DNA of 64,000 nt from Antiquaquibacter oligotrophicus (GTDB lineage: Bacteria; Actinomycetota; Actinomycetes; Actinomycetales; Microbacteriaceae): assembly GCF_020535405.1 (NCBI RefSeq), contig NZ_CP085036.1:1364001-1428000 (forward strand), written 5' to 3'. Within the stretch, counting starts at the first letter, position 1. Every line of letters begins with the position of its first letter. The notes under the pieces are model-generated. The model was given only the letters and a program-made list of their open reading frames with translations, was not told where the DNA came from and did no database searches. The position numbers and the translations under genes are program-made. This document shows positions 24,847 to 38,960 of the stretch, one piece after another.

Positions 24847-27800
24847 ATGGCGGAGTCATCTCAGACCTGGACTCCGGATCCCGGTCTGGTCCGGGAAGTG
24901 GAGGAGCAGTTCGAACGGGCAATCGCCTCGTACAAGGCGAATCCCAATCTGGTCGGCGAGCACGCGAATCACGAGGAGTCGATCCGAGTCGGCGGGTACG
25001 CGAACCGCACGCTGCTGGAGCTCGTCCAAAATGCCGCGGATGCGATGGCAGGCACCGACCTTGGCGATGTGAATCTCGGACGGGTTGAGATCGTCCTCGA
25101 TCCGGACTCGCGCACGCTCTACTGCGCCAACTCGGGCAGGCCGTTCTCCAAGAACGGCCTTATCGCGATCACTCATGCGCATCTCAGCGGCAAGCGCGGC
25201 GATGAAATCGGAAGGTTCGGCCTCGGCTTCAAGTCGGTGCTCGCGGTTACAGATTCGCCCCAGGTTGTGAGCCGCTCCGTCTCGTTCGAGTTCAACTCGC
25301 GGGTCGCCAAGGAGGCGATCATGGGGATCGGATCGGCGGCCCGCCGCCTGCCAGTACTCAGGACCGCGACTCTTCTCGATGCCAGCGCACTCATCGCCGT
25401 CGACCCGATTGTTCGGGAACTGTCCGAATGGGCGACCACCATCATCCGGCTGCCGGAGGTGACGGGTCTCAATCGGCTGCGCGCGGAGATGGAGAACTTC
25501 TCCTCGGAGTTTCTGCTCTTCGTAGGGGCAGTTCGGGAGGTGCGGTTGCGCGTGCTCGGCGAACAGGGCATAAAGACGAGTCATGTCTCTCGGGACATGG
25601 GCGAAGGCCGTTTCAAGATCGAGCGCCCGGATGGCGGAGGGGACGAATGGTTCGTCGGCGAGCGAATGCATTCGCCGTCCCAAGCGGCGCGGCGCGAGGT
25701 CGGTGAAGCCGTCTCGCGGGATGAGATCAAGGTCAGCGTCGCCATTCCCGCCCGATATTCGCAGCAGAGGGTCGGCAGGTTCTGGTCCTACTTCCCTCTG
25801 CATGACGAGACGTCCGCCTCGGGATTGTTCAACGCACCCTGGAGCGTGAACGACGATCGGACGACGCTGCTTCGGAACGACTACAACCGCGAGATACTGA
25901 CGACCCTCGCCGAGATCTTCGTCGAGATGCTGCCCCGGGTGAGCACGACCGCAGATCCGGCGGCGCTGCTCGACTACCTGCCGGCGCGAGGGCGCGAGGC
26001 GATCTACTTCGGGGACGAGGTGTTGTGCGCACTCGTCCCGCGGCTCGCGGTCAACACCGCACTCATACCGGACGCCCTAGGGCGGCTTCGGATCGCACCG
26101 GACTTGCGTCCCCTCGACTTCGAGTGGGAGGCGCCGGAGATCGCCCATGAGGCATGGATCGCTTCCCCGAACACGGCCGATGACGTTCCGCATTGGCGCT
26201 GCTACGGCTCGTCGCAGCGATTCGCTCGACTTCGACAGCTCTTCGCCGTGAGCGTCGACCCCGATCGGTTCGACGACGAAGGGCGCGACTTGAAGCGAGC
26301 CCTCGAGATGGTCCCCAAGCGCGGGATCCTCTCATGGCTTCGGGAATGGGCGGAGGGCGACGACGTCGAATCGGCAGCGAATGCGCTCAAGTTCGTCATC
26401 GGCCATCGCGGCAAGCCCGAAGTCGCGCAGGCGAGGGTCATCCCGACCAACGACGGGTTCCGCGCGCTCAACGACCGGAGCCTGGTGTTCCTGGAGCAGG
26501 CCGAAGACCTCGAGATCGAGGGAGCTGTCTTCGTTGCACCGGAGTTCCTCGCCTATCCGGGTATACAGAAGATCCTCCGCGACGCCGGCTTCCGAGATCT
26601 CGACCCCGTCGCCATTCTCCACGCCCGCATAGCTAGGCTCACGTCTTCCTCGGATTCCGAGCTTCAGGCAAAGTTCTGGGACGCGGTTCTCGGCGTCAGC
26701 CAGAAGGACGCAGTGGAAGCGATCAAGGCGCACCCCGGGGCCGCAGTCCTGGTGCCTACTCGGAACGGCGGATGGGCGTGGCCTCAGCAGGTAGTCGACC
26801 TCGACGAGACGCTGCCGGACGCCGACGGAGCGGTGCTTCTGGATCGTCAGCGATGCTTGCCCAACGTGGCTCACGCACTGGGCGTCGTGGATGGTCCGAA
26901 GCAGGAGTTCTCATTGGACGACGAGTTCGCCTTCGACCGCTATCAGGACTGGGCTCTAGCGGAGATCAATTCGCGATTGACCCCCGGGGATCGCGCAGTG
27001 GAGCGGATCTCGATGTATCCGAGTCGAGGATCCTCGCAAGGACCGTTCTCTGTTCTGCTCCTTCTCAGAGACGCGGGAGCTGCGGAGCAGACGCGCGAAG
27101 CGTGGACTCGTGGACTCCTGGAGTTCGGGGATGCGCCGTGGGATTGCGAAGACACCGCGAGCGGTCTGAGCTATCGCGTGAAGTCCCCGGTCAGGTGGGC
27201 GGTGGAACAGGCCGGTCTGCTCCGGACCTCTCGCGGGTTCCGTCCTCCGACGGAAATCGTCGCCCCCTCGCTCGTCCAATATCGCGATCTGCTGCCGCTG
27301 TTCGAAGGATCGCGGGGCGTCGTCGAGGCTCTAGGGCTCCCGGATGAGCTGGATCGCATTCCCGCAGGCATCCTCAAGGATGCGCTCGATGTCGAGCTAT
27401 TGCCGTCTGCATTCAGCGATGCCCTCCTCGTCGACTTCGTCATCACGGCGACTCGCCTGGCCTACGCGGGCGGCCAGCCCGCGCGAATTCCAGCTCGCGT
27501 GGGCCGGATCATCGAATCGCGTCCTACGAGGACCGTCTACGTCGCAGTATCCGACGAACAGCGGGACTACCTCGCTCAGCATCAGCGGCCATATCTGAAG
27601 GCCACGCAGGAGCAGGCCGAAGCGCTCGTACAGATCGTCGGATGCCTCCGATTCGAGGACAGCTTCGCCTTCTCGGTCCGCATAGATGGACAACAGGGGC
27701 CGGAGCACCTCCTCGACGTGTTTACCGGGCTGCGGGGCATCGTGGTCGGCGACGAGCTGACGAACGCCACGCTGGTGCGTGCGGCCGCGATTGCCAAGTG

Positions 27801-29580
27801 GGTCACGACCGAAGACGGCGTAGAGACGCAATCGCTCGAGTGGCATCGGGAGGGACTTGTTCTGACCGTGGGCGACACGTTGGACGAGCGGCGGACTCTT
27901 GCCGTGGTCAGCGAGGCGTTCGAGCTGGGACTAACGAACGCCGACATTGAGCGCGTGCTCAAGGTCGGACTCGACCATCATCTGGAGCTCCTTCGTCAGG
28001 AGGCTCTGTCAGCAGCGACGGACGCAGAGCGCCTCGACGCCTACTTCGGCGAGGACGATCTGCGAGAGAAGCTGCCGCGAGGCCTTTGGCAGGGTCTCGA
28101 GGCCCAAGGACTCTTGTCGCCGAGTACCTCCGTGTCTGAGTTGTGCTTGTCGGTATACGGAAAAGACACGATCAAGGAGCTCGCTGACCTCTTCCGGGTG
28201 GCTGGGTTCCCCGACGTTCCCGCCCAGTGGGCCGGTGGAGGCGCAACCGTTTCATGGCTCCGAAGAATGGGGTTCGGTGCCGAGTTCGCAGGACAGCGGA
28301 CTCAGCATCTGGATGCGGAATTCATCGTTCCTGGTGCCACAGTCCTCAACGATCTGCACGGCTATCAGCGCGAAATCAGTGTCAAGCTCCGCAAGGTGCT
28401 ACTAGAAAACTCGGACGGACGTCGGTCCAAGGCCATGGTGGTCTTGCCGACAGGTGCGGGCAAGACGCGGGTGGCTACCCAAACCATCCTGGAGCTGTTC
28501 ATCGATGGATCCATGGTGGGCCCGGTGCTGTGGATAGCGCAATCTCAGGAGCTTTGCGAGCAAGCAGTTCAAACGTTCAGCACGGTGTGGAGGGGCCTCG
28601 GCGACGAGCGGCCCGTCACCATCGGGCGGCTTTGGGATACCAATCGGGAGGTCCATCAGCCTGATACTCAGTTCAGCGTCATCGTCGCTACTGACGCGAA
28701 GCTAGAAGCGATCCTCGGTCGTCCGAGTCACGCGGAGTACGATTGGCTCCGCGAAGCTTCCGCGGTATTCGTCGATGAAGGACACGTCGCCGGAAACTCC
28801 ACCAGGTACACGCAGCTGTTCTCCTGGCTTGGCGTCGACGGGCGCTCCTGGGAGCGCCCACTCGTCGGCTTGTCGGCCACACCGTTTAAAGGAACTTCGG
28901 TCGAGGCGACCAAGGCGCTCGCGGCTCGATTCGGCAACAATCCGCTGCAGGCATTTAGCACCGATCCGTATAGCGAACTCGTCGAGCTAGGAGTGCTCGC
29001 GCGAGTCAAGCACGAGGTCCTGCAAGGGGCCGATCTGACGCTGACCGCTGCGGAAGCGGACGAAGCGAGGCGAAAGCTGATCAACCAAAAGATCCTGGAC
29101 AAGATCGCGGCCGACAATGCACGCATGGGGATCCTGGTCGAGAGCATCATGAATCTCGACTCCGAGTGGTCGAAGTCGGTACTCGTATTCACTCCGAATG
29201 TCCTCTCCGCCCAAGTCCTCGCTGCCACTCTCAGGTTCAGGGAGGTGAAGGCGGCATCGGTAAGCGGTCAGACCGGCAGGCAGGAGCGGCGCGACGTCAT
29301 CGAGCGGTTCAAGCGCGGGGAGATCCAGGTACTCGCGAACTGCGATCTTCTGACGCAAGGTTTCGACGCTCCGGGGGTCTCCGCGCTCTACATCGCCCGG
29401 CCGACCTTCAGTCCGAACGCCTACATCCAGATGGCCGGTCGCGGCCTGCGGGGGCCGAAGAACGGAGGCAAAGATGAATGCCTAATTGTCGACATGGCGG
29501 ACAACTTCGGCAGTTCCGATATCAACAACCTGCTCGGATTCCGAGAGTATGAAGAGCTCTGGCAGGAGCAGCGGTCGTGA
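24847..29580 (+). CDS. HSP90/sacsin-type ATPase fused to SF2 helicase, defence island protein 1
   Basis: A 1577-aa protein. Near the N terminus is a GHKL (HSP90-like) ATPase of the sacsin type: N-box ELVQNAADA (Asn62 for Mg binding) and G2-type glycine box GRFGLGFKS (122-130). The middle of about 900 residues is large, poorly conserved and of unknown fold. The C terminus is a superfamily 2 helicase: Walker A PTGAGKT (1201-1207), motif II DEGH (1310-1313), SATPF, and motif VI QMAGRGLRG. No nuclease is evident. The ATG at 24847 is preferred over TTG 24829 because GGGGAG sits 6 nt before it. The GTG of the next gene overlaps its stop. In an antiviral role the GHKL module could act as a regulated clamp or sensor for the helicase (inference). 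Confidence 0.85.
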   Translation: MAESSQTWTPDPGLVREVEEQFERAIASYKANPNLVGEHANHEESIRVGGYANRTLLELVQNAADAMAGTDLGDVNLGRVEIVLDPDSRTLYCANSGRPFSKNGLIAITHAHLSGKRGDEIGRFGLGFKSVLAVTDSPQVVSRSVSFEFNSRVAKEAIMGIGSAARRLPVLRTATLLDASALIAVDPIVRELSEWATTIIRLPEVTGLNRLRAEMENFSSEFLLFVGAVREVRLRVLGEQGIKTSHVSRDMGEGRFKIERPDGGGDEWFVGERMHSPSQAARREVGEAVSRDEIKVSVAIPARYSQQRVGRFWSYFPLHDETSASGLFNAPWSVNDDRTTLLRNDYNREILTTLAEIFVEMLPRVSTTADPAALLDYLPARGREAIYFGDEVLCALVPRLAVNTALIPDALGRLRIAPDLRPLDFEWEAPEIAHEAWIASPNTADDVPHWRCYGSSQRFARLRQLFAVSVDPDRFDDEGRDLKRALEMVPKRGILSWLREWAEGDDVESAANALKFVIGHRGKPEVAQARVIPTNDGFRALNDRSLVFLEQAEDLEIEGAVFVAPEFLAYPGIQKILRDAGFRDLDPVAILHARIARLTSSSDSELQAKFWDAVLGVSQKDAVEAIKAHPGAAVLVPTRNGGWAWPQQVVDLDETLPDADGAVLLDRQRCLPNVAHALGVVDGPKQEFSLDDEFAFDRYQDWALAEINSRLTPGDRAVERISMYPSRGSSQGPFSVLLLLRDAGAAEQTREAWTRGLLEFGDAPWDCEDTASGLSYRVKSPVRWAVEQAGLLRTSRGFRPPTEIVAPSLVQYRDLLPLFEGSRGVVEALGLPDELDRIPAGILKDALDVELLPSAFSDALLVDFVITATRLAYAGGQPARIPARVGRIIESRPTRTVYVAVSDEQRDYLAQHQRPYLKATQEQAEALVQIVGCLRFEDSFAFSVRIDGQQGPEHLLDVFTGLRGIVVGDELTNATLVRAAAIAKWVTTEDGVETQSLEWHREGLVLTVGDTLDERRTLAVVSEAFELGLTNADIERVLKVGLDHHLELLRQEALSAATDAERLDAYFGEDDLREKLPRGLWQGLEAQGLLSPSTSVSELCLSVYGKDTIKELADLFRVAGFPDVPAQWAGGGATVSWLRRMGFGAEFAGQRTQHLDAEFIVPGATVLNDLHGYQREISVKLRKVLLENSDGRRSKAMVVLPTGAGKTRVATQTILELFIDGSMVGPVLWIAQSQELCEQAVQTFSTVWRGLGDERPVTIGRLWDTNREVHQPDTQFSVIVATDAKLEAILGRPSHAEYDWLREASAVFVDEGHVAGNSTRYTQLFSWLGVDGRSWERPLVGLSATPFKGTSVEATKALAARFGNNPLQAFSTDPYSELVELGVLARVKHEVLQGADLTLTAAEADEARRKLINQKILDKIAADNARMGILVESIMNLDSEWSKSVLVFTPNVLSAQVLAATLRFREVKAASVSGQTGRQERRDVIERFKRGEIQVLANCDLLTQGFDAPGVSALYIARPTFSPNAYIQMAGRGLRGPKNGGKDECLIVDMADNFGSSDINNLLGFREYEELWQEQRS

Positions 29581-31091
29581 TTCTAGTTCCGGATTTCAGG
29601 GACATCGAGCGCGCGGCTCAGAGCGACGCCGAGCGCCGTCTCGCCCGGCTTCTTGCAGAGATATCGAGCCCCGACGGCGTGGCCTTCCACTCGGTCAAGC
29701 TCCGCTCGCACGCCTACAAGCAGATGGCGGAGGCCGACTTCGTCATCCTCTGGAAAGGCGTGGTGATCGTCGTCGAAGTCAAGGGCGGCGGCATCAAGAA
29801 ATTCGAGGGAGTCTGGTATTCGGTCGATCGAAATGGGGATTCGCACAGGCTGAGCTCCTCTCCGATGGAGCAGGCGCGTTCCGCGATGTTCGCGCTCAGG
29901 GACATTTTCCGCGAGGACGGTGTCGGATGGTTCGCGAGCGAGGCGCTCACGGTCACGCCCGACATCGACGCTCCGCCGTCCTCGCCCGAATGGCGATCTA
30001 GCCATTGGCTGGCGCGGGATGTGATGACGGCCGCTGCGCTGTCGTCGGCTCTGGACGTCGTGGCGGACGGAGCGCGGGCTCAACCGAGCAGGGAGCGGAT
30101 CGCCCGCGCGGATGACCTGCGCTCGCGGCTCTTCGGAGAGTTCTCGCGGATGCCCGTCGTCGATGCGCAACGAGGTGCCGTGATCGACGAGCAAAACCGC
30201 GCCACCGATGGCCAGGCGCGCGTCCTCGCCGGCTTGGCCAGGAACCCGAGGATGATCGTCCTCGGCGGTGCGGGAACCGGCAAATCGCTCGTCCTCGCCG
30301 AGGCCGCGAAGCAGGAGGCGGCGTCCGGTCATTCAGTCCTGATCACCTTCAGATCACCGGGGTTGCGCGGCTTCTTCGAGCCTCACGTCATCGGCCGCGA
30401 CGTCGACGTGGTCCCGTTCGAGGAGCTGACGGCGCTACGGCGGTACGACATCTTGTTCGTAGACGAGGCTCAGGACCTGATGTCCCCCGAGGCAATGGAT
30501 CTTCTCGATCTCGTGGTCGTCGGGGGGCGTGGAGCGGGCCGCTGGCGGATGTTCCTCGACCCGAACAATCAGGCGCAGGTCGACGGTAGATTCGATCCCG
30601 AGGTCTTCGAGATAGTTGTCGGCGAGGCCATCTCCTACGATCTCAGCCTCAACGTGCGCAATACGAAGGCGATCGTCCATGTCGTGCAGGAGTATCTGGG
30701 CGCCGATGTCGGCGACCCGGGCATCGTGAACGGGGAAAGGATCCAGTGGCACTGGGGCGGTGGCACGTACCCTGTAGACGAAGCGCTCGCGCTGGCAGCG
30801 AGATTGAAGACGGAAGGCGTTCGCGCCGACGACATCTGGATCATCCCGGTTGAGGCCGATGTCGACCTGGACGTCGTCCGCGATGGAATGCGGGTATTGA
30901 GTCCCCGCGCGGCGAAGGGACTCGAAGCCGAGCACGTGATCGTCTGCAGCCTTCCCGATGAGTTCGACGATCAACGGTTGGCCAACTTCTACGTGGCCCT
31001 GACGCGAGCCCGCGTCTCGCTTCACGTCGTCGCGAACGAGACCGACAAGAAGCGACTCCAGTCGCTGGCCAGGAAGCAGGCGTACCGGTGA
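29577..31091 (+). CDS. NERD nuclease domain / UvrD-like helicase fusion, defence island protein 2
   Basis: A 504-aa fusion. Residues about 10-130 form a NERD (nuclease-related) domain with the PD-(D/E)xK elements EADFVI (Asp54) and VVEVKGG (Glu67, Lys69). The rest is an SF1 UvrD-like helicase core: Walker A GAGTGKS (231-237), Walker B DEAQD (296-300) and C-terminal motifs RAAKGLEAEHVIV and FYVALTRAR. Catalytic residues of both domains appear intact. The helicase is short for the family, lacking obvious 1B/2B insertions. The GTG overlaps the upstream stop by 4 nt, and its stop overlaps the next start, giving strict coupling. It may supply the nuclease that the missing DrmC provides in canonical DISARM (inference). 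Confidence 0.85.
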   Translation: MILVPDFRDIERAAQSDAERRLARLLAEISSPDGVAFHSVKLRSHAYKQMAEADFVILWKGVVIVVEVKGGGIKKFEGVWYSVDRNGDSHRLSSSPMEQARSAMFALRDIFREDGVGWFASEALTVTPDIDAPPSSPEWRSSHWLARDVMTAAALSSALDVVADGARAQPSRERIARADDLRSRLFGEFSRMPVVDAQRGAVIDEQNRATDGQARVLAGLARNPRMIVLGGAGTGKSLVLAEAAKQEAASGHSVLITFRSPGLRGFFEPHVIGRDVDVVPFEELTALRRYDILFVDEAQDLMSPEAMDLLDLVVVGGRGAGRWRMFLDPNNQAQVDGRFDPEVFEIVVGEAISYDLSLNVRNTKAIVHVVQEYLGADVGDPGIVNGERIQWHWGGGTYPVDEALALAARLKTEGVRADDIWIIPVEADVDLDVVRDGMRVLSPRAAKGLEAEHVIVCSLPDEFDDQRLANFYVALTRARVSLHVVANETDKKRLQSLARKQAYR

Positions 31092-34000
31092 TGTCGTTGA
31101 CCCCTGCGCAAACCGAAACCTTGAGCCACCTCCGCAGAGCCTATGTCGGTCCGGAGCACGGCGATGACGAGGTCGTCTTCAACAGGCCGTCGCTCCAGTA
31201 CTCGGTCGGCATGCTCTTCCCCGCCGAGGATCGCATCCCGCCTGCCAGCAGCTCCTCGGCGGAGGCACCCGACCCCGAGGAGTTCCTCGAGGCCGATGTC
31301 GAGGAGGGGGATGTCGAGGAAGGCGACGCCTCTGCCCCCCTTGCCGAGGATTGGCGGCCGTCGTCGGCCGCGATCTCATTCGTGACCGGTTCCGATTCTG
31401 TCCTCTGCGATTTCGGCGCTGCCGTCTACGCGCCTGTCGAAGACGACGGACCTGCTCGCTGGGGGCGTCGAGCGCACGATTTCGCCGGGCTTGAGCTGAC
31501 TCGCGCCGCAACGCATCGGCAGCTGGATGTGGGCGGTCTCCCCGTGCAGATCGGATCCCGGTGGCGCGAATACGGCGAGGGGCACTTGGTGACAGTGCAC
31601 GTCAGGCTTTTTACGCGTTCGACGGGCGATGATCGTCAGGACATCCCGCTCATGCTCTTCCAAGTCGGTCTCGCAGTCCGTCCGGCAGAAGACGGACGGA
31701 TCCTGGAGTACGACGTGTCGCGTGCGATCGATGTCGACCGGGAGTCCCGCGAGCTGCGCCTCCGCTACAGAGACCGGAAGGTCTTTGCCGTCGGACACGG
31801 CATGGCCGCCGGATGGGATGTTGGAGAAGCGGGGAACTGCACGCGCGTTTTCCTCGACCCGGTCCCCGCGTTCGTCGTTCCCGCCATCGCTCAGACGAGC
31901 TTGAAGGATCCAGAAGGTCTGGCTGCGCGGGCACTGGATCTCGAGTTCCTCGAGACGGTAGATCAGCAGCCGGACGCGGTCGTCGCGTCGTTGGGGGCGT
32001 TCATCGACGAGTTCGCCCACTGGGTCGCGGCCCAGCAAAGCGATGCCGAGGCGCTGGGACATGACGCTCGCGAGATCGCGGCGAGATCGGCCGCAGCCGA
32101 GGCGCGGATGCGCGCGGGTGCGGCCCGCCTTATAGACCCGGCTCGAGACGACCTCCGAACAGCGTTCGCGCTCGGAATGGCGGCCATGAGATTGCAGATG
32201 AGACAGGCGGCTCTCAGCCGCGGGGAGATCGACCCCAGGCCCGCGTGGCGGCCTTTCCAGCTCGGCTTCATCCTGGTCGCCCTCGCATCCACGATCGACG
32301 AGCAGGACGCGGAGCGCGAGCTCGTCGACCTCATATGGTTCCCGACGGGCGGCGGCAAGACTGAGGCGTACCTCGGACTGGCCGCGATCTCGATCTTCCT
32401 GCGCAGACTCGTTCACGGAGCAGCCGGGGCGGGCACCGCTGTCATCACGCGGTACACGTTGCGTCTGCTGACGGCGCAGCAGTTCCAGAGGGCGGCGTCA
32501 CTGGTCTGTGCGATGGAGCTGCTCCGGGAACAGGACTCCCGTGCTCGCGGAATGGCACCCTTCTCTATCGGACTATGGGTCGGGAATGAGGCTACCCCTG
32601 GCAGGCGGAGCGAGGCGAAGTATGCACTCGAACGCCTGTACAAGGCTCGGAGCCCGCGAGAGGCCAATCAGTTCCAGATCACGGAGTGCCCGTGGTGTCT
32701 CACCGAGCTCGTGCCAGAGGACAAGGACGACACTCGCCGCGGATATGGCGCGAGGCAGGCGGGAAACGACGTCGTCTTCCACTGCGTCAACAGCGCTTGC
32801 CGGTTCTCGGCACGAGAGCTTCCGATGGCCGTGGTGGACGAAGTTCTCTACGACGAACCTCCTACGATCCTGCTCGCGACGGTCGACAAGTTCGCGCGGC
32901 TCCAGTTCAACGAGCGAGCCGGTGCCCTGCTCGGGATAGGGACACCGTTCCGACAGCCCTCCCTGATCATCCAGGACGAGCTGCACCTTCTCTCGGGCCC
33001 GCTCGGGACCACGGTGGCCGTCTTCGATGCGGTGGTCCAACTCCTCCTCGCCCGCTCCGGCTCCCAGCCGAAGATCATCGCCTCGACAGCGACGATCCGG
33101 GCGTCGGACGACCAGGTCCGAGGGTTGTACGGCCGATCCGTGGCGCTCTATCCGCCCGCCGGGCTCGACGGCGACAGCACCTTCTTCGCGCAACCCGTTG
33201 AGAACGGAGAAGGCCGGCTCTACGTAGGCCTGATGCCGCAGAGCGTGTCGCAGGCCACGGCTCTCGTCGGCGCTACGGCTCCCCTGGTAGAGCTGCCCGG
33301 AGCGCTGCGCGGCGTCGAACGCATAGACGGTCGCCTCGACCCCTATTGGACGCTCGTGATGTACCACAACAGCCTCCGCGAGCTCGGTCGCAGCAGTGCA
33401 CTGCTGCTGGATGACATCAACGGACGTCTGGAGACGCGGGCAGAGCGGCTCTCTCACGAATTGCGTCGAGTGCGTGCTGCGTCCGTGCTGGAGCTGACGA
33501 GTCGTCGCGGTCCGGAGGAGCTCCCCAACGACCTGCGCCAGCTCCGGATCAGTGCGGACGAGTCCGCCTCCGCGGTGGACGTCGTGCTGTCATCGAACAT
33601 GCTCTCGGTCGGCATCGACGTCCAACGGCTCGCTCTGATGCTCATGGTGGGTCAGCCCAAGACGACTGCGGAATACATCCAGGCCACGAGCCGGGTGGGA
33701 CGCGGCTCGGTCGACGGCATAGTCGTCACACTCTTCCGGTCCAATCGTGCGCGGGACAGATCCCACTTCGAGACCTTCAGGAGCTACCACGAGGCTCTGT
33801 ACCGCAGCGTCGAGCCCACGAGCGTCACGCCCTGGTCGCTGTCGTCGAGGGACCGTTCCCTCGCGGGCGCCCTGGTCGCCCTGGTCCGCCAGTCCTTCCC
33901 GCGCCTGGCATCAGACGCATCGGCGGGCGACTTCGACCTCGACGACGCAGGATTCCGTACCGCACTCGATCCGCTGGTGGATCGGCTCGTCTCGCTCGTA

Positions 34001-34273
34001 GCGCGCGCGGACGACCGCGAGGCGGAGGGCGTCTCCGACCAGATCTGGGAGCTCTTGAGGGAGTGGGATCGTCGTGCCGGGAAGTCACGGGCGGAAGGGC
34101 AGCAGCTTCGATACGAGCGGCGTCCCCCGTCGGCCACCGCCCTGCTGATGAGATTCGGCCAGACTGGCGAGGGCTGGCTTGTCGGAGACTCCATGCGATC
34201 CGTCGAGCCGAATGTCGCGGTCGAGGTCCAGGAGCCCTTGCAGGAGGTGCAGCGTGCAGAAGATCAGGCATGA
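31091..34273 (+). CDS. drmA: DrmA-like helicase of a DISARM-type system
   Basis: A 1060-aa SF2 helicase of the DrmA type. The N-terminal about 400 residues carry no recognised domain and include an acidic Glu/Asp run. The helicase core has Walker A FPTGGGKTEAY (Lys423), a zinc ribbon (CPWC near 533-536 and CVNSAC near 565-570) inserted between the motifs, motif II QDELH (629-632), STATI, and motif VI QATSRVGRG. In DISARM, DrmA and DrmB form a complex that scans DNA. The ATG at 31091 shares its A with the upstream stop; GTG 31088 is an alternative. The 3' end overlaps drmB by 20 nt. Confidence 0.88.
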   Translation: MSLTPAQTETLSHLRRAYVGPEHGDDEVVFNRPSLQYSVGMLFPAEDRIPPASSSSAEAPDPEEFLEADVEEGDVEEGDASAPLAEDWRPSSAAISFVTGSDSVLCDFGAAVYAPVEDDGPARWGRRAHDFAGLELTRAATHRQLDVGGLPVQIGSRWREYGEGHLVTVHVRLFTRSTGDDRQDIPLMLFQVGLAVRPAEDGRILEYDVSRAIDVDRESRELRLRYRDRKVFAVGHGMAAGWDVGEAGNCTRVFLDPVPAFVVPAIAQTSLKDPEGLAARALDLEFLETVDQQPDAVVASLGAFIDEFAHWVAAQQSDAEALGHDAREIAARSAAAEARMRAGAARLIDPARDDLRTAFALGMAAMRLQMRQAALSRGEIDPRPAWRPFQLGFILVALASTIDEQDAERELVDLIWFPTGGGKTEAYLGLAAISIFLRRLVHGAAGAGTAVITRYTLRLLTAQQFQRAASLVCAMELLREQDSRARGMAPFSIGLWVGNEATPGRRSEAKYALERLYKARSPREANQFQITECPWCLTELVPEDKDDTRRGYGARQAGNDVVFHCVNSACRFSARELPMAVVDEVLYDEPPTILLATVDKFARLQFNERAGALLGIGTPFRQPSLIIQDELHLLSGPLGTTVAVFDAVVQLLLARSGSQPKIIASTATIRASDDQVRGLYGRSVALYPPAGLDGDSTFFAQPVENGEGRLYVGLMPQSVSQATALVGATAPLVELPGALRGVERIDGRLDPYWTLVMYHNSLRELGRSSALLLDDINGRLETRAERLSHELRRVRAASVLELTSRRGPEELPNDLRQLRISADESASAVDVVLSSNMLSVGIDVQRLALMLMVGQPKTTAEYIQATSRVGRGSVDGIVVTLFRSNRARDRSHFETFRSYHEALYRSVEPTSVTPWSLSSRDRSLAGALVALVRQSFPRLASDASAGDFDLDDAGFRTALDPLVDRLVSLVARADDREAEGVSDQIWELLREWDRRAGKSRAEGQQLRYERRPPSATALLMRFGQTGEGWLVGDSMRSVEPNVAVEVQEPLQEVQRAEDQA

Positions 34274-36068
34274 CCTCCGTCTATCGGAGACCATCTCGCC
34301 CTTCGGGGTCGGCGCGATCGTCGACATCCGCGGCGAGTCGCTGATCGCGCCCGATACCTCATGGTGGGATCGGCGGATCGCGCCCGAGATCACCTGCGAA
34401 CGACTCGTCGCCAGTATCGGCGGGGGAGTACTGCGACAGCCGCCCACTCATGCGGATCGCCCCGGTTCCGATACAGCCAGCCTCTTGTACTGGCGATTCC
34501 CCGCGTGGCGGTTCTGCGAGCGCTGCGGGAAGTTGTCGCAGCTAACGCGGTCCGACAAGGGCCGTTGGAGGAACTCCTGCGACTGCGGCGGCTCTCTCGT
34601 CCCGATGCGGTACGTGGCCGTGTGCGAGACGGGAAGCCACGCGCAGGACGTCCCTTGGTTCAAGTGGGCGCATCGGGGAAGTGACGCGGGTGTGACCGAA
34701 GAGGTCAGGCACTGCCGGGCGTACAAGAAGCTCCGTTTCGAGCGCTCCACCCGGCATGGGGAGGGTCTCGCTTCGTTGCGCGTCAGCTGCGGCGGATGCA
34801 AGAGATCGCGCTCGTTGGCAGAGCTCGTCGGAAAAGACGCTCTGCTCCGCGACGGGATCCGCTGCGACGGTAGACAGCCGTGGGAACGCGAGGGCGCTGC
34901 CGCGGTCGTCTGCGAATCGCATCTGGTGGCGGTCCAGCGCGGAGCCACCGGCAACTACATCGCGGAACGCGTCTCCGCCCTCGACATCCCTGAGGGGACG
35001 CCGAGGTCTCTGGAGACCGCGGACAAGATCCGAGCCCACGACCTGTACGAACGGCTCGTGGCCGATAACGGCGGACCCAGGTCGGAGCAAATCGCCGGAT
35101 GGATCGCGGAGGAACTGGGGGCGACTCCCGAAGCCGTACTCGCGGTCGCTCTGTCCGCCAGCGAGGATGTGGACTCGCCCCTTCTAGATCTCAAGGACGG
35201 CGAGTGGGCCGCGTTCGTGAACAAGATCGAGGCTGGACATGACCGTGTGGGCGGCGACTTCGTCGTGGACGGCTGGGCGGGCGACGGTCTTGCGGAGGAA
35301 CCCGCTGAACTGCGGCGAGTGCTCGCCGGCATCGGGCAGGTCCGGCGTGTGCGCGAGGTCCGGGCGCTGAAGGGATTCCGCCGTCACAGCCCGCAAGCCG
35401 ACTTCGTCCCGGCCGACCTCGACCGGGATCCGCGGCACCGCTCGGTCTATCCGGCTATCGAGATGTTCGGCGAAGGGATCTTCCTACGATTCGACGAGCG
35501 GACTCTCTCCGAGTGGGAGAGCGATCCGGCGGTACGGGCACGGGCGAACATCCTTATCGAACGCCGCGCCCAGTCGCCCTGGGCGCACCGGCTCGATGCT
35601 CCGGAGCCGCGATTCATTGCTCTCCATACCATCGCGCATCTGCTCATCCGGCGGCTGGCCTTCGCGAGCGGCTATTCCTCCGCCTCGCTCCAGGAGCGCA
35701 TCTACGCGAACTCCGACCGTGCCGACAAGACGGCTGGCATCCTCGTCTACACCGCCGCCGGGGACGCGCAGGGCACGTTGGGAGGGCTGGTGCGACTGGG
35801 CGAGCCCCGTCATCTGTTCCCGCTCCTCATTGCGGCTCTCGACGACGCCGATGTGTGCTCCAACGATCCCGTATGCATCGAGAGCGACAGGCAGGGATCG
35901 TCGCAGCTCAACCTTTCCGCCTGCCACGGGTGCGGGCTGATCAGCGAGACGTCCTGCGAGACCGGCAATCGCCTCCTAGACCGCCAGCTTGTCCTCGGCG
36001 GCAGCGAGGTTCCAGGTCTTCTGGAGTCGTTGCTTCGCGCGGTCCGGGAGGATGCGGGTGAGCGTTGA
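34254..36068 (+). CDS. drmB: DrmB-like DUF1998 protein of a DISARM-type system
   Basis: A 604-aa protein with a DUF1998 C-terminal domain: HTIAHLLIRRLAFASGYSS, then GDAQGTLGGLVRLG, and the Cys motif CSNDPVC...ACHGCGLISETSCE...LLDRQL. The N-terminal part has zinc-finger-like Cys pairs (CERCGKL, CDCGGSL, CGGCKRS). The opening LSETISPFGVGAIVDIRGES is typical of DrmB. The GTG at 34254 has AGGAGG 6 nt upstream, inside the end of drmA, whereas longer frames are out of family. DrmB partners DrmA in DNA binding. It is followed by a 55-bp gap and the methyltransferase. Confidence 0.9.
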   Translation: MQKIRHDLRLSETISPFGVGAIVDIRGESLIAPDTSWWDRRIAPEITCERLVASIGGGVLRQPPTHADRPGSDTASLLYWRFPAWRFCERCGKLSQLTRSDKGRWRNSCDCGGSLVPMRYVAVCETGSHAQDVPWFKWAHRGSDAGVTEEVRHCRAYKKLRFERSTRHGEGLASLRVSCGGCKRSRSLAELVGKDALLRDGIRCDGRQPWEREGAAAVVCESHLVAVQRGATGNYIAERVSALDIPEGTPRSLETADKIRAHDLYERLVADNGGPRSEQIAGWIAEELGATPEAVLAVALSASEDVDSPLLDLKDGEWAAFVNKIEAGHDRVGGDFVVDGWAGDGLAEEPAELRRVLAGIGQVRRVREVRALKGFRRHSPQADFVPADLDRDPRHRSVYPAIEMFGEGIFLRFDERTLSEWESDPAVRARANILIERRAQSPWAHRLDAPEPRFIALHTIAHLLIRRLAFASGYSSASLQERIYANSDRADKTAGILVYTAAGDAQGTLGGLVRLGEPRHLFPLLIAALDDADVCSNDPVCIESDRQGSSQLNLSACHGCGLISETSCETGNRLLDRQLVLGGSEVPGLLESLLRAVREDAGER

Positions 36069-36111
36069 TGCGGTGCTGGCGCGCCAGCCGCATTCGGAAG
36101 GGCCTGGAAAA

Positions 36112-36117
36112 TAGAAT
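36112..36117 (+). promoter_or_regulatory. -10 element of a leaderless promoter for the methyltransferase
   Basis: TAGAAT lies exactly 6 nt before the GTG start of the methyltransferase gene, in the only gap within the defence operon. This matches the leaderless arrangement seen elsewhere in the window. It would let the methyltransferase be made separately from the helicase genes. No clear -35 is visible. Confidence 0.5.
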
Positions 36118-36123
36118 GAAGGC

Positions 36124-37224
36124 GTGACGAATCGCAAGATCGCCGTCCTCGACCTGTTCTCCGGTGCAGGCGGACTAACGGCTGGCCTGCACCAGGCGTC
36201 GGATCGCTTCCAGGTCGTCCGGGCCGTCGAATGGGACCTGGCGGCCGCGGCATCGTACGAGGCGACTTACGGCGCAGGAATCGTCTACGCGGGCGACATA
36301 AAGGGCTGGCTCGAGAAGGAATACGTACCGGGCTCGGACCTGATCATTGGCGGGCCTCCGTGCCAAGGATTCTCCAGTCTCGGTAAGCGGGACGTGGAAG
36401 ACGAACGCAATTTCCTCTGGATGGAGTACGCACACACTATCCAGAAGGCGATGCCCAAGTACTTCGTGCTCGAAAACGTGGCCGAATTCAAGAAGTCTCC
36501 GCAATACTCGATCTTTAAGGATGCGACCTCGAAAGGGGGCATGCTGCAGGAGTACGGCTTCGAGTCGGCGATCCTCAATGCCGCGGACTTCGGCGCCCCG
36601 CAGGCGCGGCGCCGCACCGTGATAATTGGATACCACCGCGATCTCGGATTCCCCGGTTTTCCGAGACCTACACATTCGTCGAATTCCGAGGGCACCGGCC
36701 TGCGGCCCCATGCAACGGTCGCCGACGCGCTTCGAGGGGTGCCGCGCAGGCCTGATCGCGATCATCTCTTCGAGGCGAAGCGGACGCGCTTCGGGGCGAG
36801 GGAGTTCGCTGGCTCCTTCCGCCCGCGCGAACTTCATTGGAGCCGCAACTACACTGAGCTCTCACTCAAGCGCTTCGCAGTCATCCCCGCAGGTGGTAAT
36901 CGCCGCAATCTCGAACCCTTCCCCGAGCTGATGCCTCCGTGCTGGACCAAGCACAAGACGGGCTCGGGCGACGTCATGGGGCGCCTTCACTGGAATCGTC
37001 CATCGGTGACGATCCGTACGGAGTTCTTCAAGCCGGAGAAAGGCCGGTACCTCCACCCAGAGGAGCATCGCGCGATCACGCACTACGAGGCGGCGCTCCT
37101 GCAAGGCTTTCCATCGAACCATCGATTCGTGGGCTCAAGAACAGATATCGCGCGGCAGATTGGCAACGCTGTGCCTATACCCCTCGGCGCAGCCATCGGG
37201 CGGCTGCTCTCGAGCGTGCTTTGA
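36124..37224 (+). CDS. drmMII: DNA cytosine-5 methyltransferase (DrmMII-like)
   Basis: A 366-aa C5 methyltransferase. Motif I is VLDLFSGAGGLTAGL, motif IV GGPPCQGFSSLG with catalytic Cys80, motif VI ENVAEF, motif VIII QARRRTVIIG and motif X RQIGNAVPIPLG are all present; the target-recognition region lies between about 210 and 310. It would mark host DNA and so allow self/non-self discrimination by the upstream helicases. The recognition sequence cannot be read from the protein. The size is typical. A terminator follows 84 bp after the stop. Confidence 0.93.
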   Translation: MTNRKIAVLDLFSGAGGLTAGLHQASDRFQVVRAVEWDLAAAASYEATYGAGIVYAGDIKGWLEKEYVPGSDLIIGGPPCQGFSSLGKRDVEDERNFLWMEYAHTIQKAMPKYFVLENVAEFKKSPQYSIFKDATSKGGMLQEYGFESAILNAADFGAPQARRRTVIIGYHRDLGFPGFPRPTHSSNSEGTGLRPHATVADALRGVPRRPDRDHLFEAKRTRFGAREFAGSFRPRELHWSRNYTELSLKRFAVIPAGGNRRNLEPFPELMPPCWTKHKTGSGDVMGRLHWNRPSVTIRTEFFKPEKGRYLHPEEHRAITHYEAALLQGFPSNHRFVGSRTDIARQIGNAVPIPLGAAIGRLLSSVL

Positions 37225-37307
37225 GGACTGCCGTAGCCAAGCCGCTCGCGGCAGGCCGGTACTAGCTCCCACCCCCCCTCGCGGATCTCGGCAGCAACGA
37301 CTCGCCG

Positions 37308-37343
37308 AAACTCCCCAAGGACGTGTATGTCCTTGGGGAGTTT
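37308..37343. terminator. Strong terminator at the end of the defence island
   Basis: A perfect 15-bp stem (AAACTCCCCAAGGAC / GTCCTTGGGGAGTTT) with a 6-nt loop GTGTAT, ending in a short T run. The A/T arms make it bidirectional, serving both the methyltransferase and the convergent dehydrogenase genes. Confidence 0.9.
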
Positions 37344-37384
37344 CGTGATCCTAGGGCGCAACGCGCCACTTCCCCGTGACCTCC

Positions 37385-38173
37385 TCAAGCAGGTACTACC
37401 GCACCAACCCTCCCAGTCGTCCTGGTCCGCGCCTGCGCCCACTCTCCGAACCGCGTCGCCGCCACCTCCGCCCCATCCCCCGGCAGCAACTCGTCCTCCT
37501 CCAACCGCGCACCGAAGTAGCGCGCCAGCGGGTCCGCGACCACTTGGCGCGGGTCGTTCCGGATGCCCAGCTCCTGCCGCACGAGTTCCTCCAGCCGGAA
37601 GCGTTCCGGGCCCGCGATCTCGATGGTCGCGTTGCGGGGTGGTTCCACGGCGACGCGAGCGATGAACGCTGCCACATCGTCGGCGGCGATGGGTTGGATG
37701 AGGGCGCGGGAGAGGCGCACGTTGTGACCGACGGTCGCGGCATCCGCGATGCTCTTCACGAACTCGAAGAACTGGGTCGAGTGCACGATCGTGTACTGCC
37801 GGCCGGAGTCGCGAATCAGCTGCTCCTGCGCGGCCTTCGCCGCGAAGTAGCCGCCCTCGGAGGCGGCGAGACGGTCGGTTCCGACGACGGAGAGCGCCAC
37901 GTGGTGGGTCACACCCGCCGCCCTGCCGTAGGTAAGCAGATTGAGGGTGGAGGCGTAGAAGAAATCGGTGGCCGCCCGCTCGTCGAAGTATCCGGAGTTG
38001 GTGACGTCGATGAGCACCTCCGCCCCGGCGAGCGCCTGCTCCAGGCCCTCCGCCGTGTACGTGTTCACCCCCGTCGCACGGGACGCCTCCACCACCTCGT
38101 GACCCTGCGACCGCAGCCGCGCCGCCACGCGCGACCCGATCAGCCCCGTGCCACCGGCAACCACGACCCTCAT
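37385..38173 (-). CDS. NAD(P)-binding NmrA-like oxidoreductase/epimerase, paralog 2
   Basis: A 262-aa atypical short-chain dehydrogenase of the NmrA/epimerase group. The N terminus MRVVVAGGTGLIGSRVAARL holds the glycine-rich cofactor loop, and the region LIDVTNSGYF follows the first fold. The ATG at 38173 overlaps the stop of its upstream paralog by 4 nt. The two proteins align along their full length (GGTGLIGSRV, VNxYTxEGL, VAxDVTNS, HHVALSxVG, FEFVKxIAD), so they arose by tandem duplication. The substrate is unknown. Both would be controlled from the ECF41-type promoter upstream. Confidence 0.85.
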   Translation of the reverse strand: MRVVVAGGTGLIGSRVAARLRSQGHEVVEASRATGVNTYTAEGLEQALAGAEVLIDVTNSGYFDERAATDFFYASTLNLLTYGRAAGVTHHVALSVVGTDRLAASEGGYFAAKAAQEQLIRDSGRQYTIVHSTQFFEFVKSIADAATVGHNVRLSRALIQPIAADDVAAFIARVAVEPPRNATIEIAGPERFRLEELVRQELGIRNDPRQVVADPLARYFGARLEEDELLPGDGAEVAATRFGEWAQARTRTTGRVGAVVPA

Positions 38174-38910
38174 CGCGCCGACCACTCCGCGAATGTCAGC
38201 GGCGACAGCTGCGCGCCGTCACCGGTGACGAGCGAACGCTCCTCCAGCTTGGTGCCGAAGTAGGTGGCATCCGAGTCGGCGACGACCTGGCGCGGGTCAC
38301 CCTGGGTGGCGAGACCGGCGCGGATGAAATCATCCATCGGCAGCGCGTCGGGCCCACCCACCTCGATCACCCCGTTCAGCGGAGCTCCCGCCGCGGTGCG
38401 CGCCACGGCCGCTGCCACCTCGGAAGACGCCACCGGCTGAATCAGCTCGTGCGGCAACCGCACCACACCGTCGACGGTCACCGAGTCGGCGATGCCCTTC
38501 ACGAACTCGAAAAACTGGGTCGCCTTGACGATCGAAAACGGCACACCCGACTCGCGGATGAGCTTCTCCTGCGCAACCTTGGCGCGCAGGTAGCCGCTGT
38601 CGGGCAGGCGCTCGGCGCCCACGATCGACAGGGCCACATGATGCCCCACCCCCGCGGCCTTCTCGGCCGCCAGCAAGTGGGTGGTGGAGGTGGTGAAGAA
38701 GTCCATCACGTCGTCGTCGGCGAACGACGGGGAGTTGGTGACATCCACCACCACGTCCGCGCCGGCGAGCGCAACGTCGAGCCCCTCCCCCGTGTACGCG
38801 TTCACGCCCGAACTCGGCGACGCCGCCACCGCCTCATGCCCGTGCTCCCCCAGGAGGGAGACGACGCGCGACCCGATCAGACCCGTTCCACCTATGACGA
38901 CAACCTTCAT
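38170..38910 (-). CDS. NAD(P)-binding NmrA-like oxidoreductase/epimerase, paralog 1
   Basis: A 246-aa paralog of the next gene with the same NmrA-like fold: KVVVIGGTGLIGSRVVSLL at the N terminus and DVTNSPSF and HHVALSIVGAERLPDSG later. Oxidoreductases/epimerases of this kind are one of the typical partners of ECF41 sigma factors (the COE group: carboxymuconolactone decarboxylase, oxidoreductase, epimerase). The ATG at 38910 is the first one aligned with the glycine loop. A TGTCACA-N16-TGTT element lies upstream. Confidence 0.85.
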   Translation of the reverse strand: MKVVVIGGTGLIGSRVVSLLGEHGHEAVAASPSSGVNAYTGEGLDVALAGADVVVDVTNSPSFADDDVMDFFTTSTTHLLAAEKAAGVGHHVALSIVGAERLPDSGYLRAKVAQEKLIRESGVPFSIVKATQFFEFVKGIADSVTVDGVVRLPHELIQPVASSEVAAAVARTAAGAPLNGVIEVGGPDALPMDDFIRAGLATQGDPRQVVADSDATYFGTKLEERSLVTGDGAQLSPLTFAEWSAR

Positions 38911-38960
38911 GGCACTGCCCTTCGTTTGCGGCACCGCCAGGTGCGGCGCTCACAAGCTCA

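Follow-up and report, generated by a model that had tools for sequence, protein, structure and literature searches.

A recurrent, apparently undescribed DISARM variant with a sacsin/Hsp90-type ATPase-helicase and a NERD nuclease-helicase beside DrmA and DrmB

Four adjoining genes of Antiquaquibacter oligotrophicus, g1, g2, drmA and drmB, are a real, recurrent and apparently undescribed variant of DISARM. We are highly confident that the block they form represents a recurrent DISARM-like defence variant with a putative anti-phage role. The explanation that best covers the whole, a DISARM-like system with a DrmA-DrmB core in which g1 and g2 replace the class partners and DrmC, is favored with moderate confidence. 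The initial annotation had proposed a distinct DISARM variant, and this reading stands, since g1 and g2 match no DrmE model and are conserved beside drmA/drmB.

The block was found in a window of 64,000 nucleotides (the whole stretch of DNA analyzed), which belongs to a 2.9 Mb genome in one contig. Five genes on the plus strand span positions 24847-37224; both this arrangement and the domains assigned to it by the initial annotation were borne out by the coordinates and by profile matches. The first gene, g1 (24847..29580, 1577 aa), has an ATG start with GGGGAG just 5' of it and overlaps g2 (29577..31091, 504 aa) by 4 nt (GTGA). A second 4-nt overlap joins g2 to drmA (g3, 31088..34273, 1061 aa), which has a GTG start; an alternative ATG at 31091 would leave a 1-nt overlap, and in most loci the homologue matches begin there (residue 2). 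The most likely extent of drmB (g4, 604 aa) is 34254..36068, starting from a GTG after AGGAGG and overlapping drmA by 20 nt, and, numbered on a longer reading from 34179, the matches from close loci start at residue 26. After a gap of 55 nt follows g5 (36124..37224, 366 aa), a C5 cytosine DNA methyltransferase gene. Just 3' of g5, a hairpin with a 17-bp perfect stem and a 6-nt loop (37306..37345) is a candidate transcription end; it has no T-rich tail and was not listed by the terminator pattern scan, its pairing having been checked separately. The GC content was 0.63 for g1, 0.65 for g2, 0.62 for g5 and 0.66-0.67 for drmA, drmB and the surroundings. Two neighboring minus-strand genes, which by eye are NAD-dependent epimerase-like, come after the block (37385-38934).

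The DISARM core is represented by g3 and g4. The g3 product is a DrmA-type, YprA-family helicase with an acidic low-complexity stretch at residues ∼50-93; its best PADLOC profile gave an E value of 2.5e-196 and the DrmA structure 7s9v one of 5e-138, and the NCBIfam DrmA model scored 800 bits, under the NCBI cut-off of 950. The separate DrmB-type protein encoded by g4 has an MZB/DUF1998 zinc-binding domain (PADLOC E 1.2e-69; NCBIfam DrmB_fam 399 bits with a cut-off of 240; Pfam MZB). In g2, a NERD PD-(D/E)XK nuclease domain (residues 16-111) is fused to a UvrD-like SF1 helicase. The Pfam models NERD and Viral_helicase1 were over their cut-offs and UvrD_C_2 was just under (27.0 vs 27.4). Residues E19, E52, D54, E67, K69 and Q99 of g2 were invariant in 58/58 sequences, and the helicase motif residues were kept in all or all but one of them.

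Of 8000 candidates scored in a protein search, 1096 were related to g1 with E values of 0.001 or below, and 62 loci were obtained when the named genome collection was scanned with an alignment of g1. In 57 of these, tblastn located g1-g2-drmA-drmB in the same order and on the same strand, with gaps of -92 to 53 nt between matched ends; the full blocks come from 26 named genera and 16 named families. Two Microbacterium loci (L091 and L102) carry g1-drmA-drmB beside DrmD-like and DrmMI/IIG-like genes, in two others (L095 and L099) a g2-like gene comes after g1-UvrD-drmA-drmB, and L101, matched at g1 residues 6-138 only, is a miss among the 62; L022 was dropped as the same locus as L069. Three further loci (L035, L039 and L040) are among the 81 g1 loci fetched and outside every type count. 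The genome searches score limited first-look candidates, and their counts may be lower bounds. In seven loci (L049, L052 and L065; L044, L047, L057 and L080; clusters c7 and c17-c20) an HTH-fused protein, GHKL-like by eye, was seen, which in some of them is surrounded by a recurrent gene set and is probably part of a separate R-M-like system.

At E 1e-30, 19 of 394 genomes sampled from the class had a g1 match, confined to the helicase part in G057 and G258, and 18 full-length g1 genes were present in 17 genomes. All but one of the 18 adjoin drmA/drmB, two in the close type and fifteen in a distant type; in G118 the full-length g1 lies ∼29 kb from drmA/drmB on the same contig. Distant-type g1 has 30-37% identity (best piece), and a UvrD helicase lies between g1 and drmA in 15/15 loci; no NERD-domain match was found in the one such helicase scanned (L023). 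The conservation of g1 and g2 beside drmA/drmB on which the initial annotation had staked its claim is therefore far beyond chance, with 57/62 loci and, for g1 and UvrD, 15/15 distant-type loci. DrmA itself occurred in 64/394 genomes, at ∼74 loci after merging of pieces, of which ∼30 were class-1-like by score (13 fetched), 17 had a full-length g1, 20 had other partners and 5 were weak, the rest being G057, where a lone g1-type helicase adjoins, and the G118 case. With 17 of ∼74 drmA loci beside it, g1 is thus one of several DrmAB partners in the class. The carrier scans were g1-seeded, so they show the company of g1 and not how often drmA has g1.

DISARM reportedly comes in a class 1 and a class 2, as set out by Ofir and co-workers in 2018. 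PADLOC and NCBIfam profiles found no DrmC and no DrmE among the five block genes, as had been claimed at the outset, and hence no DrmC PLD nuclease of the DISARM core in the operon. DrmD and DrmMI, sought with DrmC for type I (class 1), were likewise absent from the five genes, and for type II (class 2) no DrmE model matched g1-g4; the question raised earlier, whether g1 or g2 might be a catalogued DrmE, was answered in the negative at E 0.001. PADLOC, in the rules excerpted from PMC9252829, requires DrmC together with DrmD or DrmE for types I and II, so the blocks would be reported as neither. The fetched loci were searched in six frames with a DrmC profile for which nine class-1-like loci had served as the source. 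This profile detected 12/13 class-1-like loci and 5/5 further drmC loci outside the model, and 0/81 g1 loci. It also detected 0/20 loci of drmA with other partners, so that the missing drmC, which had been proposed as support for a new type, does not set the g1 loci apart from those others.

The block could be an ordinary class 1 or class 2 DISARM whose drmC, drmD or drmE has diverged or been displaced elsewhere in the genome, which we consider improbable. DrmC is dispensable and often absent according to the relevant passages of Bravo 2022 (PMC9142583), and DrmD-like and DrmMI/IIG-like genes accompany g1 in the two Microbacterium loci and in two of the 15 distant-type loci (L030 and L037). 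Against this, when the whole genomes of 30 of the 62 carriers were searched with the NCBI DrmC model, it exceeded its cut-off in only 4 genomes, at five places, each of which has its own drmA and/or drmB near; one lies ∼24 kb beyond the L057 block on the same contig. In the A. oligotrophicus genome no DrmC was over cut-off, and the sole match, ∼450 kb off, was to a 528-aa frame that scored under the cut-off and has two PLD-like stretches. DrmE was over cut-off in 0/30 and 1/32 further carrier genomes, the latter including A. oligotrophicus, which has none; the one case (L087) lies outside the block by its coordinates.

The DrmA phylogeny also argues against an ordinary class 1/2 system. The tree (79 rows, for which the 57 close loci were thinned to one in three and the window was added) was computed by a quick method with SH-aLRT support alone, and the program flagged several long branches of unsure placement. 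Three clades were resolved: the window's type (20 rows; support 100), to which the pair L091/L102 was joined (96); the distant type together with L095, L099 and G118 (100); and, apart from the window's type, the 13 rows of class 1 (99). The loci with other partners fall between the clades, so that the g1 partnership has either arisen or been lost repeatedly or predates both. Sigma-like proteins were seen near some of the fetched drmA and drmB genes: a sigma-70-region protein beside drmB in five loci (cluster k12; L133, L134, L136, L138 and L143), with Pfam regions 2-4 in L133, the sole one scanned, and a gene call that may fuse two genes, and a sigma-like protein, by eye, near drmA in seven (k8; L135, L139, L141, L144, L148, L166 and L167).

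The g1 protein combines a GHKL (sacsin/Hsp90-like) ATPase with transducer (residues ∼16-400, from profiles and from a model and fold match of residues 1-1150) and an SF2 helicase (∼1177-1545). Pfam detected SACS (34.5 bits, cut-off 32.8), ResIII and Helicase_C, and further matches were the RadD helicase and sacsin. The middle of the protein (∼405-1155), analyzed also on its own, was confidently modeled and had no strong PDB match among the chains compared; it may hold folds so far absent from the PDB. A TmtA (Tiamat) profile matched the N-terminal part of g1 with E 4.1e-53, and the six best matches of this profile in the 394 genomes were all g1 genes, which could suggest that g1 is a Tiamat defence protein acting alone. 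However, the profile search gave no full-length TmtA match: the best model aligned over its positions 11-353 of 1538 only, another reached g1 residue 655, and the helicase was taken by other models. Moreover, the TmtA model matches the N-terminal part of many ∼1000-aa frames in actinobacteria (172/394 genomes), which indicates that the portion common to TmtA and g1 is a widespread ATPase domain. A stand-alone Tiamat is still less probable than an ordinary DISARM. Annotation could label g1 as Tiamat, and Tiamat calls in actinobacteria may be mixed.

A distance test, from which L072 was left out, showed correlated divergence of g1, g2, DrmA and DrmB, which together with the conserved order supports joint work of the four proteins. 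That g1-g2 and drmA-drmB(-methyltransferase) are unrelated modules brought together by defence-island clustering is the least likely alternative, since, even though g2-like genes adjoin drmA/drmB without g1 in the fetched stretch and drmA/drmB occur with other partners, the 57 loci of 26 genera keep order, strand and tight spacing, the genes overlap in the window and their divergence is correlated. In cluster k15 (L146, L149, L150 and L151) a ∼510-aa protein (L149:5335-6897) was noticed, which in L149-L151 lies ahead of a g2-like gene and of drmA and drmB, with no g1 there; L149, the sole member scanned, showed a weak DrmE_C likeness (Pfam E 9.5e-4, below cut-off).

Of the parts of the block, the methyltransferase recurs least consistently. 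The g5 product is a C5 enzyme (Pfam DNA_methylase; best 25 of 61 profile matches), which matched the DrmMII profile at 1.2e-47, with DruM2 and type II models scoring better. With a profile from the same gene cluster, a C5 methyltransferase was detected within the fetched locus of 41/57 blocks and none in that of the other 16, some of which are cut by contig ends. Relatives of g5 with 73-79% identity lie 66-84 nt after drmB in seven loci, and some other nearby methyltransferases may belong to neighboring restriction systems. The idea of one fixed five-gene type was not upheld by these counts, and it is also contradicted by the related clade with a plain UvrD helicase in place of the NERD protein and by NERD-UvrD genes beside drmA/drmB with no g1 in the fetched stretch.

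The genes 5' of the block resemble HU, rpsN, rpmG and rpmB by eye. In 18 congeners, for which 16-17 kb of the same site was fetched, no DNA matching the block was present there. A C5 methyltransferase and a NotI-like endonuclease lie beside the rpmB-like gene in G445, and a type I R-M system in G447, which supports the site as a defence-gene hotspot. By eye, L202 has an apparent further type I system, and most other congeners have fur/znu-type genes.

For Serratia DrmAB, loading on exposed single-stranded DNA ends and restraint by an acidic loop are in print; the parts of Bravo 2022 (PMC9142583) concerned with activation describe 5'-overhang DNA as the trigger, the nuclease partner as unsettled and the use of class-specific subunits as an open question. 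By analogy, DrmAB of the block, restrained by the acidic loop of DrmA, would load where incoming phage DNA exposes single-stranded ends. The g1 protein may clamp and translocate on DNA through an Hsp90/SMCHD1-like gate and help to sense or load. Its intact catalytic residues suggest that g2 would unwind and cut DNA, and the simplest reading is that g2 is the nuclease of DrmAB. Where present, g5 would mark host DNA. This division of labor, and with it the view of the initial annotation that NERD supplies the nuclease and the GHKL-helicase protein the sensing, is a tentative proposal. We regard as more doubtful the further possibility of a third DISARM class, widespread in Actinomycetota, with the g1 clamp-helicase as sensor-loader instead of the class-specific partner, the NERD nuclease-helicase as effector in place of DrmC, and self-recognition that in some carriers is independent of a neighboring methyltransferase. 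As DrmC is absent and the catalytic residues of g2 are conserved, a DrmC-less variant with a nuclease-helicase beside DrmAB offers a direct route to how DrmAB leads to DNA destruction.

DISARM variants are to be expected, since DISARM-like classes have been published. The preprint Bell 2025 (PMC12458937), which names ARMADA, BRIGADE and TALON, speaks of "many uncharacterized DISARM-like" classes within the DISARM-like clade, and the Shield paper, in its corresponding part, of other DISARM-like operons with ShdA homologues. Sacsin, Hsp90, GHKL and DrmE are absent from the main text of PMC12458937, and among the matches listed in a literature search, with subscription papers and supplements outside its scope, there was neither a description of a g1-type variant nor a paper combining DISARM, sacsin and helicase. 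As far as the relevant sections of PMC12458937 describe it, ARMADA type II resembles the block in having several helicases, one of them a GajB-like SF1, around a YprA-family helicase; ARMADA, however, also comprises BrxHII-like and PglX-like proteins, and its SF1 helicase is fused to RelE, whereas the one here carries NERD, and the same sections call separate DrmA and DrmB genes, as found here, consistent only for DISARM. TALON, in those sections, shares a YprA-type helicase with a NERD nuclease but differs by its TPR-CSD and TBP genes and by a helicase resembling that of ARMADA; no such Pfam domains occur in the five block genes. Tiamat has in common with g1 a sacsin-like N-terminal ATPase, the match being limited to that part. 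The DISARM-like cassette beside McrBC mentioned in excerpts of Bell 2024 (PMC11090510) and Bell 2025 is possibly the set on Deinococcus gobiensis plasmid P4 (L220, NC_017792.1, 11980-18711). In the P4 set, from another phylum, a gene resembling g2 (32%) is accompanied by a helicase gene and one for DUF1998, beside Vsr, DUF2357 and C5 methyltransferase genes, and the set differs from the block in having no annotated g1. With DISARM class 1/2, as outlined in the pertinent parts of PMC9142583 and PMC9252829, the block shares DrmA, a separate DUF1998/MZB DrmB and, here, a DNA methyltransferase beside them; unlike those classes, it is without DrmC, DrmD and DrmE, has g1 and g2, and its DrmA forms a clade of its own.
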